A stretch of 22,629 bases of DNA from positions 1 through 22,629 of IMG/VR virus record IMGVR_UViG_3300047195_000053; one strand, 5' to 3'. Below the pieces are notes generated by a model. The model saw only the letters and a program-made list of their open reading frames with translations, had not been told where the DNA came from and made no database searches. Positions within the stretch are counted from its first letter, which is position 1, and each line of letters starts with the position of its first letter. Positions 2,161 to 22,629 of the stretch are shown piece by piece. Origin of the DNA: a virus. The position numbers were made by a program, and so were the translations under genes.

Positions 2161-4509
2161 ATGCCATTAACAAAACTTCAAATAGTAGCAGGTATTAACA
2201 GAGAAGGAACTAACTATTCTAACAATAATGGTTGGTATCAAAGTAATAACGTACGGTTTCGTTCTGGGTTTCCTGAAAAAATAGGGGGATGGGCTAAAGT
2301 TGACAACACTACATATTTAGGTACAGCAAGAAACCTTTGGAATTGGGTTACTTTTAACGGTTTTAATTATCTATCTATCGGTACCAATATAAAGTTTTAT
2401 ATTAATTCTGGGGGGGTTAATAGTGATATTACTCCTATTCGGGCTACTTTTGTTTCTCCTACTACTAATAATTGTTTTGCTACTACAAATCTATCAACTA
2501 CAGTTGTAGTTACTATTTCTGGACATGGGGCAATTACTGGAGACTTTGTAACTTTTTCAGGGGTATCAGGTACTGTTGGGGGTATTGCTTCTGCTACCTT
2601 AAATGCAGAGTTTCAGATTACTTATATTTCTTCAACCACATTTTCTATTGTAGTACCCAACGCAGCTACGTCAACTACATCGGGTGGTGGCACTGCTATT
2701 ACAGCAGCTTTTCAAATTAACACAGGGTTAGATGTATATACTGTAGGTACAGGATGGGGAGCAGGGCCGTGGAGTAGAGGAGCTTGGAACTCTAGTTATT
2801 CTTTAGGTATTGGTGACCAGTTGATGTTGTGGTCTAGTGATAACTACGGACAAGATCTATATTTTGCTACTCGTGGTGGGGCTATATATCAATGGAGTAA
2901 TTCAACTGGACTTAATGTAAGAGGTAAATACCTTTCTGCAGTTGCATCTACTCAAATAGCTGTTACAGCAAGTGCTACATTTTCTTCAGGCGTAACTTCT
3001 ATTACTGTACCTTTTCCCTCAGGGATTGTTGGTGGAGCTTATATATCAGGAACAGGTATTCCTGCTAATACTTATGTATCTTTATCCTATGTAGTAGGAT
3101 CACAAACGGTACCTATATCTTCTACAACAACAGCGTCAAGTAGTACTACGGGGTATACTTTTACTTATTCAGGGAGTTACATTCCAACTAATACAAATCA
3201 AATATTATGTTCTTCTGTTCAACAATTTATTATTGCTTTTGGCGCTAACTCATACATACCTAATACTCCTACTAGTGATTTTGATCCCATGCTTATACGT
3301 TGGTCAGATCAAGCTAACCCTTATCAATGGGTTCCTGATGTAACTAACCAATCTGGTGAATATAGACTTTCTCATGGGTCTTATATAATTCAAGCTCAAG
3401 TTACTAGACAAGAAACATTAATTTGGACAGACACCTCTATTTATTCTATGCAGTATATAGGCGCTCCTTATGTATGGGGTGTTCAATTACTTATGGATAA
3501 TATTACTATTATAGCCCCTAACGCGGTTATTACTGCTAATGGAACTACTTATTGGATGGGGTTGGATAAATTTTATGCTTATGATGGCTCTGTTAATACG
3601 CTGTATTGCTCTTTAAAACAATATATTTTTACGGATATTAATCTAGATCAAGGGTTTCAAGTGTTTGCTGGAGGTAACTTTGGTTACAACGAAATTTGGT
3701 GGTATTACTGTTCTGAAAATTCTTCAATAATAGACCGTTATGTAGTCTATAACTATGTTGAAAAAGTATGGTTTTCAGGGAATATGACTAGAACTGCATG
3801 GTTAGATTCTAGCTTACAGCCTGCTCCTATAGCTGCATCTTATAGCCCAGTTACTGCATTTAAAGGCTCTATATCGGGTACAACATTAACTGTATCTCAA
3901 GTATATTATGGGACTGTACCATTAGGGCAATATATTACAGGCATGGGGATTATTGCTGGTACCTCTATAGTTAGCCAGTTAACAGGAACAACAGGAGGAA
4001 TAGGTACTTACCTTATTAACTATACACAAACAGTAGCTGAAACTTCTATAGAAATAATTACAACCAGCACTGGTCTTTTGTTAGCGCATGAAACAGGAGT
4101 AGATAATGTCTCTGGCTCAGTTCCTGTGCCTATAGATGCTTTTATTCAATCATCAGATATTGATATAGAAGACGGACAACATTTTGGGTTTGTGTGGCGT
4201 ATACTTCCTGATATAAACTTTAATGGGTCTGATGTTTCTAGTCCTTACGTTAATATGACTGTATGGCCTAGATTAAATTCTGGTGCTCCTTATGGTTCAG
4301 CTGATAGTCCAGCAGTTATAAGTGATAATAACTATGCTCCTCCGTACCCTCCTAATTCTAGTGTTTATGTTGTTCAACAATATACAGGGCAAATTTATAC
4401 TCGCTTAAGGGGTAGACAATTAAGTTTTAGAGTAGAGTCTAACTCATTAGGCACTGCATGGCAGTTAGGATCTCCCCGTATAGACGTTAAAGTTGACGGC
4501 AGGAGATAA
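2161..4509 (+). CDS. Tail nozzle / DNA-stabilisation-like beta-propeller virion protein
   Basis: The 782-aa protein is almost entirely beta-prone and aromatic-rich. The N-terminus (GINREGTNY...[14 protein letters not shown], residues 11-44) resembles an environmental-phage family I recognise as virion structural proteins. The core includes SDQANPYQW (382-390), [13 protein letters not shown] (398-410) and repeated short strand patterns such as [12 protein letters not shown], in keeping with propeller proteins of the P22 gp10 (stabilisation) / T7 gp12 (nozzle) type. Length is close to the T7 nozzle (794 aa), and a gp13-like gene and large ejection genes follow downstream as in T7. Three segments, about 107-185, 266-340 and 566-635, look like inserted Ig- or FCCH-like beta modules that could decorate the surface. 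AGGA at 2151-2154 precedes the ATG. The structural role is well supported; the nozzle assignment is inference from length, composition and order. Confidence 0.6.
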
Positions 4510-20740: not shown

Positions 20741-20769
20741 ATTATAATATATACGTTAATTGTCGTCAA
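20741..20769 (-). promoter_or_regulatory. Near-consensus sigma70 promoter for the 3-gene replication cassette
   Basis: On the minus strand TTGACG (20769-20764) and TATAAT (20746-20741) are separated by exactly 17 bases. The -35 box matches 5 of 6 and the -10 box 6 of 6 consensus bases. A start near 20734 would leave a leader of roughly 18 bases containing AGGAG before the ATG at 20716. The -35 box lies within the last codons of the HNH gene. Confidence 0.85.
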
Positions 20770-21286
20770 TAGCTAAAGCACTACATCTTTGAATAGGGTT
20801 AAATATATGGTATTGTTGTTTAGCTTGTTTATAGGCCTCATTCGCTGCCTCTATAGAATTATAGATCCCTAAATATATAGCTTTCCCATCTACCCTTATT
20901 TGTGCTATCCATGTATTAGGTTTTTTATGAGGGTATACACCTATACACCCCGATGTGTTGTTACTACGCATCTTTTGGTTCTGGGCTTGTTCTTTATGTC
21001 CTTTAGCCAATCTTAGATTTAGTAATCTATTATCATCTCTATTCCCATTTATATGATCTATAGTAAATCCTTGTGGAATGCTACCGTATAGGTATACCCA
21101 AGCCAGCCTATGAGCCATATAGCTAGATTTATTTATTCTGATAAGCCTATACCCGTAAGGGTTTATACTCCCTGCTTTACTCCCAAGTTTTATACTCCAG
21201 TTAGGAGACTGAGCCCATGTAAATTCTCCCGAATCAGGGGCATACATTAGTATATTTTTTAATACTTCTTGTTCTATTACTTTCAT
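20756..21286 (-). CDS. Free-standing HNH homing endonuclease with AP2 DNA-binding domain
   Basis: The 176-aa protein has the HNH_3 plus AP2 layout of phage homing endonucleases. The nuclease core is H59-R-L-A-W, then TIDHINGNRDDNRLLNLR (75-92) with D77-H78 and N90 as the expected beta-beta-alpha-metal residues. The AP2-like domain (about 112-160) shows SGCIGVYPHKKPNTWIAQI, VDGKAIYLGIY and EAANEAYKQA. Such proteins cut an allele lacking the element and spread by repair. The ATG overlaps the TGA of the SNF2 fragment (ATGA) with AGAGG eight bases upstream, so it is coupled to the helicase gene, and its 3' end carries the promoter of the next cassette. All key residues appear intact. Confidence 0.88.
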   Translation of the reverse strand: MKVIEQEVLKNILMYAPDSGEFTWAQSPNWSIKLGSKAGSINPYGYRLIRINKSSYMAHRLAWVYLYGSIPQGFTIDHINGNRDDNRLLNLRLAKGHKEQAQNQKMRSNNTSGCIGVYPHKKPNTWIAQIRVDGKAIYLGIYNSIEAANEAYKQAKQQYHIFNPIQRCSALAIDDN

Positions 21287-22356
21287 AATATTACCTCTTT
21301 ATATAAATCTAAAAGTTTAGTCTGCGCGGCATCTTTATTCTCTAGCACATGCAATACTTTTTTCTCTACTGGACTTCCTATTAAATGCACCACATTACAT
21401 GCGTTAACTTGCCCTGCTCTATGTATTCTAGCATTTGCTTGTTTGTATGTCTCTAGAGAAAGTGTTATACCCCACCAAACAATCGTGTTAGCCGCATGTA
21501 AAGTTACTCCATGTGCCGCCGCTTGCGGCTGGATGACCAGTATGCGTGGATCTTTAGCTGTCTGGAAGTCAGAGAAGATTTGATTTCTTTTACCTACTGC
21601 AATTCCCCCATGTATTACATCTACTGAATGCCCTGCATTTGATAATGCTTTTTCTACTAGCTCTATAGAATGTCTAAACATAACAAACACAATTACTTTA
21701 TGTGATGCTTCTTCTATGATGCCTAATAACTCTGCCGTACGTTGCTTAACATCAAACTCTATAACCTCACCGCTATCTGAATAGACTGACCCTGCACTTA
21801 ACTGCAATAACTTATTTAAGGCTACCGCCGCATTTGCCGCAGATATTTCCTCACCTCCAGCCTGCATAAGCATTTCTTTCTTTAAGAGCTTATAGTATTT
21901 CTCTTGTTGTGCAGACAAGGGCACTTCTCTAGTTTGGTATAGTAACTCTGGTAAATCTAAGCATTCTTCTTTGGTAAAACGTATTGCAGGTTGAAGAATA
22001 CTATGTACTATCTGTTCTGCTTCAGGTCTATTCACATAAGTGAACACCGATTGTTTTATCTGAACTATATCTCTAAAAGCATTAAAGGCTCTAGGTACGC
22101 TCTTAGGATCCATCATTTTAGCTAAGCCATACGCATCTACTGGAGACTGTGCCGCTGGAGTTCCTGTTAATTGCCACAACCATGTGGTAGGTGTTACGAG
22201 TTTATTAATAGACTTCCATCGGTTAGTAGTATGAGTCTTTATAAATGTACAGTTATGTACCAACATACCTTCTATAACATAATCGTGGGGCCCCTCTACT
22301 TCTAAATTCCAAACATCGCAAACACTGTCTTGTTGGACACTCTTAACACAGTCCAC
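21283..22356 (-). CDS. C-intein fused to the C-terminal half of a SNF2-family helicase
   Basis: From GTG 22356 the product is 357 aa. Residues 1-35 are an intein C-terminus (VWNLEVEGPHDYVIEG, then MLVHN) with Cys36 as the +1 residue. The extein that follows is a SNF2 helicase lacking its N-half: CTFIK, the tail of motif II (DE|C), LTGTPAAQSPVDAYGL (motif III, 63-78), LQPAIRFTKEECLDLPELLYQ, KVIVFVMFRHS (motif IV), AAAHGVTLHAANTIVWW (motif V) and QANARIHRAGQ (motif VI, 306-316). The Walker A half must lie beyond the window's right edge. Protein splicing in trans, or in cis if the frames are joined, would restore a helicase able to remodel replication or recombination intermediates. AAAGGGG five bases upstream supports independent initiation at GTG. 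The stop overlaps the HNH start. Confidence 0.85.
   Translation of the reverse strand: MDCVKSVQQDSVCDVWNLEVEGPHDYVIEGMLVHNCTFIKTHTTNRWKSINKLVTPTTWLWQLTGTPAAQSPVDAYGLAKMMDPKSVPRAFNAFRDIVQIKQSVFTYVNRPEAEQIVHSILQPAIRFTKEECLDLPELLYQTREVPLSAQQEKYYKLLKKEMLMQAGGEEISAANAAVALNKLLQLSAGSVYSDSGEVIEFDVKQRTAELLGIIEEASHKVIVFVMFRHSIELVEKALSNAGHSVDVIHGGIAVGKRNQIFSDFQTAKDPRILVIQPQAAAHGVTLHAANTIVWWGITLSLETYKQANARIHRAGQVNACNVVHLIGSPVEKKVLHVLENKDAAQTKLLDLYKEVIL
22252..22356 (-). other. C-intein (IntC, ~35 residues), splice junction at 22252/22251
   Basis: Block F is D-V-W-N-L-E-V-E-G-P-H-D-Y-V and block G is G-M-L-V-H-N followed by Cys (codon 22251-22249). The penultimate His and terminal Asn needed for Asn cyclisation and the Cys nucleophile at +1 are all present. 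The length from GTG to Asn matches natural split inteins, whose IntC parts are about 35 residues. The insertion point is in SNF2 motif II (Walker B), a typical conserved-site choice for inteins. Confidence 0.85.
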
Positions 22357-22628
22357 CCTAACCCCTTTAAAAAAGCTTCCTTCTTTTTGTCTTGTGCTTG
22401 ACGTATTAAACTGTTGTGGCTGTTCCCATCTACCTCTACCACTATCATTTTGGTAGGGTTTGCAAAGTCCGCTTTGTAGTGCGTTGGATAACCGCTCCCC
22501 CGCTTCTGGTGGGTAGGGATTACATAATTGTGTTGAAACTCGTTTGATATTACTCGAGCTAATAACTCTTCTGCTGGAGTCATTCCAGTACCATTCCCGC
22601 CTCGTATTTTTAAAAAAGCTGTTTTGTC
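22302..22628 (-). CDS. Homing endonuclease of the Vsr-like EDxHD type, 5' truncated by window edge
   Basis: The frame is open from the window edge to TAG 22304-22302. Upstream of an internal ATG (22583) it reads DKTAFLKIRGGNGTG, matching the R-G-G-N-G-x-G that I recall before this nuclease family, so the true start is probably outside. The body has GSGYPTHYKADFANP, VVEVDGNSHNSL, QAQDKKKEAFLKGLGWTVLR: the Asp, Glu-x-Asp, His and Asp positions of Vsr/DUF559-like nucleases and the closing L-G-W-x-V-L-R strand. This family is known between halves of phage genes split by inteins. It overlaps the C-intein frame by 55 bases. It would cut intein-less helicase alleles and so mobilise the element. Confidence 0.8.
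   Translation of the reverse strand, partial: DKTAFLKIRGGNGTGMTPAEELLARVISNEFQHNYVIPTHQKRGSGYPTHYKADFANPTKMIVVEVDGNSHNSLIRQAQDKKKEAFLKGLGWTVLRVSNKTVFAMFGI
22362..22368 (-). promoter_or_regulatory. Shine-Dalgarno-like site for the C-intein GTG start
   Basis: AAAGGGG on the minus strand ends five bases before GTG 22356. It lies inside the nuclease coding sequence and supports separate translation of the C-intein/helicase fragment. Confidence 0.5.
22368..22374 (-). other. Candidate -1 frameshift heptamer U_UUU_UUA
   Basis: In the nuclease frame the codons GCT TTT TTA give T_TTT_TTA in slippery phase. A -1 slip continues as AAA GGG GTT AGG GTG, exactly the frame of the C-intein. AAGGA lies a few bases upstream; downstream only a weak 5-bp stem (TGGAC...GTCCA) is visible. 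The same 12-mer AGCTTTTTTAAA also occurs at 22620-22609 in the same phase. Confidence 0.4.
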
Positions 22629-22629
22629 C

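Follow-up and report, generated by a model that had tools for sequence, protein, structure and literature searches.

The right edge of the virus record IMGVR_UViG_3300047195_000053 (IMG/VR), which was analysed over its entire 22,629 bases (the window), carries on its minus strand the C-terminal half of a phage SNF2 helicase, directly preceded by the C-terminus of an intein and overlapped in another frame by a homing-endonuclease gene of the EDxHD type. The question raised by this locus is whether the helicase is a fractured gene, with a split intein whose halves are spliced in trans, or a continuous gene in which the intein DNA itself encodes the nuclease as well. Our analysis revealed that the window very probably contains a continuous, cis-splicing intein that follows the residues DE in motif II (Walker B) of the helicase, with DNA that is dual-coding for a putative EDxHD homing endonuclease in the +1 frame.

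Two overlapping open frames were found on the minus strand, 22629..21283 (448 aa) and 22628..22302 (108 aa), and both of them are open at the 5' end. The longer frame ends in the SNF2 helicase C-half, and the shorter one encodes a DUF559 nuclease. The open reading frame (ORF) 22356..21283, whose frame stays open up to 22629, contains CDVWNLEVEGPHDYVIEGMLVHN immediately followed by CTFIKTHTTNRWK, and then the SNF2 and Helicase_C domains (Pfam SNF2-rel, 6.6e-9; Helicase_C, 1.1e-15), for which PHROG matches were obtained too. The intein part consists of a linker region overlapping the nuclease and then the block F/G region (GVRVDCVKSVQQDSVCDVWNLEVEGPHDYVIEGMLVHN), while its 5' end is off the record. 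Block G reads MLVHN with Cys at +1, as in class 1 inteins, and the NCBIfam model intein_Cterm (TIGR01443) matches exactly at the LVHN/C junction (15.1 bits, curated cutoff 15.6). In two intein-free alleles of the helicase (L002 and L053, protein 95-96% identical), LDE followed by ATFIKTHTTNRWK was found where the window has LVHN followed by CTFIKTHTTNRWK, so the insertion point is exactly after DE of motif II, with the +1 residue changed from A to C in the window. The insertion is precise and polymorphic: motif II is interrupted at DE/C in the window and reads DE/ATFIK, uninserted, in L002 and L053, and among 80 viral helicase relatives fetched, all those covering the insertion site are uninterrupted. 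An intein C-terminus in the Walker B motif of a SNF2 helicase had already been proposed from the letters alone, and these results agree with it. The same sequence-only reading described a helicase without its N-half, which is true of the window, but only because the record ends at 22629; the N-half is present in L002. The features are listed in Table 1.

Table 1. Features of the intein-containing helicase locus, in window positions.
Feature	Position	Strand	Evidence
Intein C-terminal part, helicase frame	22252..22629	-	Frame open to record edge; TIGR01443; same-site intein in L082; 0 stops vs 11.0 expected
EDxHD/DUF559 homing-endonuclease gene (predicted), +1 frame of intein	22302..22628	-	DUF559 2.4e-10; own-record hidden Markov model (HMM) 2.9e-44; AlphaFold pLDDT (predicted local distance difference test) 87.6; top fold match I-Bth0305I (3r3p)
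EDxHD catalytic residues D54, E65, D67, H71, D80 (visible-frame numbering)	22389..22469	-	Alignment with 30 relatives, invariant
Splice junction Asn/Cys+1 (AAC/TGT), after DE of helicase motif II (Walker B)	22249..22254	-	Intein-free allele GACGAA/GCG in L002 and L053
C-extein, C-terminal half of phage SNF2 helicase	21283..22251	-	Pfam and PHROG matches; 85% nucleotide identity to intein-free L002

The visible part of the nuclease contains a complete C-terminal catalytic domain with all EDxHD residues, and its N-terminus is past the record edge. In addition to the profile matches of the window nuclease itself, DUF559 was matched by all 30 aligned relatives, in which the residues of the E-x-D...H...D pattern are invariant. 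The best fold match of the predicted structure is the catalytic domain of I-Bth0305I, of the PD-(D/E)xK type, and Vsr (1vsr) is also listed. Because the top E-value of the fold search was only 5.5e-3 (Foldseek probability 1.00), the EDxHD assignment rests on motif, profile and fold together. A Vsr-like EDxHD nuclease in a different frame, from a family found in fractured genes, is what had been read from the sequence at first; its supposed position just upstream of the intein has to be corrected, for the whole visible length of the nuclease overlaps the intein's own open frame. The polymorphic insertion is consistent with the predicted nuclease cutting the intein-free allele and driving homing.

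Continuity of the helicase frame was assessed by drawing synonymous codons anew according to the codon usage of the phage, with the nuclease protein kept constant, and counting the stops that appear in the helicase frame (40,000 draws). Across the 108 visible nuclease codons the helicase frame has 0 stops, while 11.0 were expected, and no draw left it open. No interruption into separate ORFs for the N- and C-terminal intein halves (IntN and IntC) was seen in these 108 codons, the search ending at the record edge. Since an untranslated frame would lose its openness, the helicase frame appears to be translated across the nuclease. This bears directly on the fractured gene of the sequence-only reading, in which a helicase N-half with IntN would end at its own stop, the nuclease would be a separate gene, and an IntC starting near GTG 22356 would splice in trans. 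A GTG is present at 22356, the nuclease belongs to the same family and the IntC has a similar length, and two of the relatives (L172:3214-5433 and L188:3196-5487) are exactly such fractured SNF2-type helicases, in which the IntN ORF is closed by a stop of its own, a separate ORF encodes IntC with the helicase part behind it, and the nuclease overlaps both halves. However, the IntC frame of these two is open for only about 45 nuclease codons, and 14 and 10 host-frame stops occur across the nuclease (expected 13.1 and 18.5, respectively), whereas in the window all 90 visible codons upstream of 22356 are open (0 stops vs 9.55 expected; 0 of 40,000 draws). A continuous helicase frame upstream, which that reading had itself named as evidence against a fracture, is what is found as far as the record reaches, IntN being past the edge. 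As the only other intein at this site and 111 of the 115 relatives analysed are continuous too, a fracture in the window is improbable, and the claim of a split intein with an IntC starting near 22356 is very probably wrong.

Scans for a near-identical nuclease or IntC, seeking the missing N-half, found only L082 and the intein-free alleles, and no DNA-level match of the window to isolate phages was found. L082, the only other intein carrier detected at the window's helicase site, has a single 572-aa ORF with VIDE followed by CFPKGTKVFTPSG, then CTPEHPF, and finally LVHN followed by CNHYKNSNSKRWK, that is, a continuous in-frame intein. Its intein N- and C-terminal models both score above the curated cutoffs (N-terminal TIGR01445, 9.5e-8), and the N-terminal Cys1 of block A and the TxxH of block B (C83...TPEH), which in the window are beyond the record edge, are present. 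The AlphaFold model of L082 consists of a HINT domain (pLDDT about 95) with a disordered linker at residues 96-126 (pLDDT about 32-48), and the best PDB fold match of the predicted intein is the gp41-1 intein. In the +1 frame, L082 retains the C-terminal nuclease region; identity to the window is 75% in this region, compared with 43% in the overlapping intein frame. The differences between the two are concentrated at the third nuclease codon position (12, 8 and 25 at positions 1, 2 and 3).

The other relatives were gathered by nuclease similarity alone, without selection for an open host frame. In 111 of the 115 loci (95 distinct nucleases), the nuclease lies in the +1 frame within one long continuous ORF, most of them with recognisable intein motifs on one side or on both. 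These loci come from phages of Vibrio, Pseudomonas and Corynebacterium, from IMG/VR contigs and from bacterial contigs. Among the 111, the nuclease was never found in frame or at the +2 offset, and the +2 frame is full of stops. Summed over the 95 distinct loci, 0 host-frame stops were observed vs 821 expected (78 of 95 individually P<0.01), while a control set of 53 more distant DUF559 relatives showed 348 stops vs 336 expected. Four further loci (L268-L271) have a +1-nested nuclease in a continuous ORF as well. Where the N-side is readable, nearly all insertions are after DE of the Walker B or P-loop motif II, so the Walker B placement in the window follows the rule of the family. Judged from flanking sequence rather than a full family scan, the hosts are mostly SF2 helicases, and SNF2 helicases, terminase-like ATPases (L083, L157) and DnaX-like proteins (L192, L193) also occur. 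In the public records of isolate phages of Vibrio, Pseudomonas and Corynebacterium (L085-L092), the nested nuclease is unannotated in all eight inspected, and only a long helicase or hypothetical coding sequence is annotated.

Comparison of the two frames indicates that both behave as genes. Over the core overlap, nuclease identity exceeded host-frame identity in all 1,279 pairwise comparisons, with substitutions concentrated at nuclease third codon positions, which points to purifying selection on the nuclease frame; from the GW motif to the nuclease end, a stretch shared with the beginning of the intein C-terminal block, conservation is more even between the frames. With the host-gene signal removed, intein and nuclease distances are correlated (partial r 0.41, permutation p about 0.0005), and therefore the composite tends to travel together. 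An out-of-frame nuclease could otherwise be a decaying relic, displaced by an indel from a formerly in-frame domain, or a sequencing error, and loss of the first nuclease part in L082 would suit decay. But the identical +1 offset recurs in 111 loci, independently sequenced isolates among them, the nuclease frame is under strong purifying selection with invariant catalytic residues, and it is the host frame, not the nuclease frame, that drifts. Relic and sequencing error are very improbable on these grounds, and both were rejected for the constant offset and the selection pattern.

The nuclease ORFs of the relatives start near the end of IntN, and in many of them the GAGG of the DEV(L) codons stands at suitable spacing ahead of an ATG. 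A Shine-Dalgarno (SD)-like match of at least 4 nt precedes 80% of the nuclease starts, compared with 33% of matched control codons. Programmed ribosomal frameshifting from IntN, giving an IntN-nuclease fusion, would be another route to expression, one that the nested layout allows; a fixed shift would suit the offset, which is +1 in every nested case. Yet an internal start codon preceded by the SD-like match is present in most nuclease ORFs, and the fusion product would be without IntC, so that frameshifting is the less likely route compared with internal initiation, and is distinctly improbable.

Several points weigh against a continuous, dual-coding intein in the window. Its IntN and the nuclease start are beyond the record edge, so continuity is seen only for the last 108 nuclease codons, and a stop in the helicase frame could still lie farther upstream. 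The intein C-terminal model scores slightly below its curated cutoff, the sole same-site relative L082 has the first part of the nuclease deleted, and L172 and L188, with the same nuclease family, are truly split.

By these comparisons the window is placed in a widespread class of dual-frame inteins with predicted homing to Walker B sites. It is likely that dual-frame mobile inteins form such a class in general, with the linker DNA of a continuous intein encoding a full EDxHD homing endonuclease (+1 frame, own ribosome-binding site), specialised for P-loop ATPases (SF2/SNF2 helicases, terminases and DnaX-like proteins), in which they occupy the Walker B motif, and that fractured genes with split inteins evolved from them. 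The helicase frame would encode two halves of a HINT splicing domain joined by the disordered linker, and a complete Vsr/I-Bth0305I-like EDxHD endonuclease would be encoded in the +1 frame, over a stretch that spans the linker and reaches into the first part of the C-terminal splicing block. Ribosomes reading straight through would produce a precursor whose self-splicing restores motif II, the helicase presumably being inactive until then, while other ribosomes would initiate internally and release the free nuclease. Cleavage of intein-free alleles by this nuclease, at the Walker B codons, would spread the element. If a stop or indel broke the host frame while IntN and IntC still associated, a truly split (fractured) gene would arise. 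Judging by frequency rather than by a rooted tree, the nested form appears to be the usual state, from which the rarer fractured form seems to derive.

In 2009, Dassa and colleagues reportedly described fractured genes that pair split inteins with EDxHD endonucleases, such as gp41-1 and NrdJ-1. The window and its family resemble them in the nuclease family, with I-Bth0305I as the top fold match, in an intein fold closest to gp41-1, and in a nuclease placed between IntN and IntC (22302-22628 in the window). Unlike fractured genes, the window and about 97% of the relatives are unbroken, with one ORF running through both intein halves and the +1-frame nuclease overlapping it. Canonical large inteins with an in-frame LAGLIDADG or HNH domain likewise have standard splicing blocks and the nuclease between IntN and IntC, but here the nuclease is in another frame with its own start and is not part of the intein protein. 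The nearest case is the insertion in ShiLan, which contains an out-of-frame HNH homing endonuclease, has no splicing domain or detectable ribosome-binding site and is thought to be retained in the protein (PMC11855218). Both are stop-free insertions with a homing endonuclease in a second frame, whereas the insert described here is an intein, with intein motifs and a HINT fold in the same-site L082, its nuclease is of the EDxHD type, and an SD-like site is usually present. No description of the dual-frame intein class was found in the accessible literature, a scope that leaves out the 2025 preprint by Gosselin, Arsenault and Gogarten (10.1101/2025.01.02.630785) on 'non-canonical architecture' in the inteins of actinobacteriophages. 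PMC11855218 cites that preprint where it deals with overlapping reading frames in actinobacteriophages, and similar cases may be described there.

If true, the arrangement would explain the origin of natural split inteins with free endonucleases: a continuous intein would already harbour the nuclease as an overlapping gene of its own, so that a single stop codon would yield a fractured gene. It would also provide a large natural set of overlapping genes with one frame kept merely stop-free, a clean system for overlap evolution, and gp41-1-like inteins, both continuous and split, could be drawn from it. Intein surveys restricted to in-frame domains would score such loci as endonuclease-less inteins with odd linkers.

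Other nuclease arrangements were seen at some loci. A second overlapping architecture was detected in L259, where a DUF559-type nuclease with an N-terminal helix-turn-helix-like part (3205-3828, minus strand) is antisense to the host ORF (2161-4044, plus strand), inside the intein of a phage minor-head-like protein. In L144 (3355-3996), a freestanding member of the window's nuclease family immediately precedes an SF2 helicase that is intact and has no intein, an arrangement that resembles intronless homing beside a target. In L149 (4870-5010), exactly 4 additional bases at the motif II insertion point disrupt the helicase frame, and a freestanding member of this family is found just upstream; the break is possibly a scar of cleavage and repair or of intein loss. 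In the window itself, a freestanding endonuclease gene with HNH_3 and AP2 domains (20756-21286, minus strand) directly follows the helicase. This gene is missing in the intein-free L002, where the helicase stop directly precedes TTGACGACAATTAACG, the stretch with which the HNH gene of the window ends, which suggests a second insertion of the homing type at the 3' end of the helicase.
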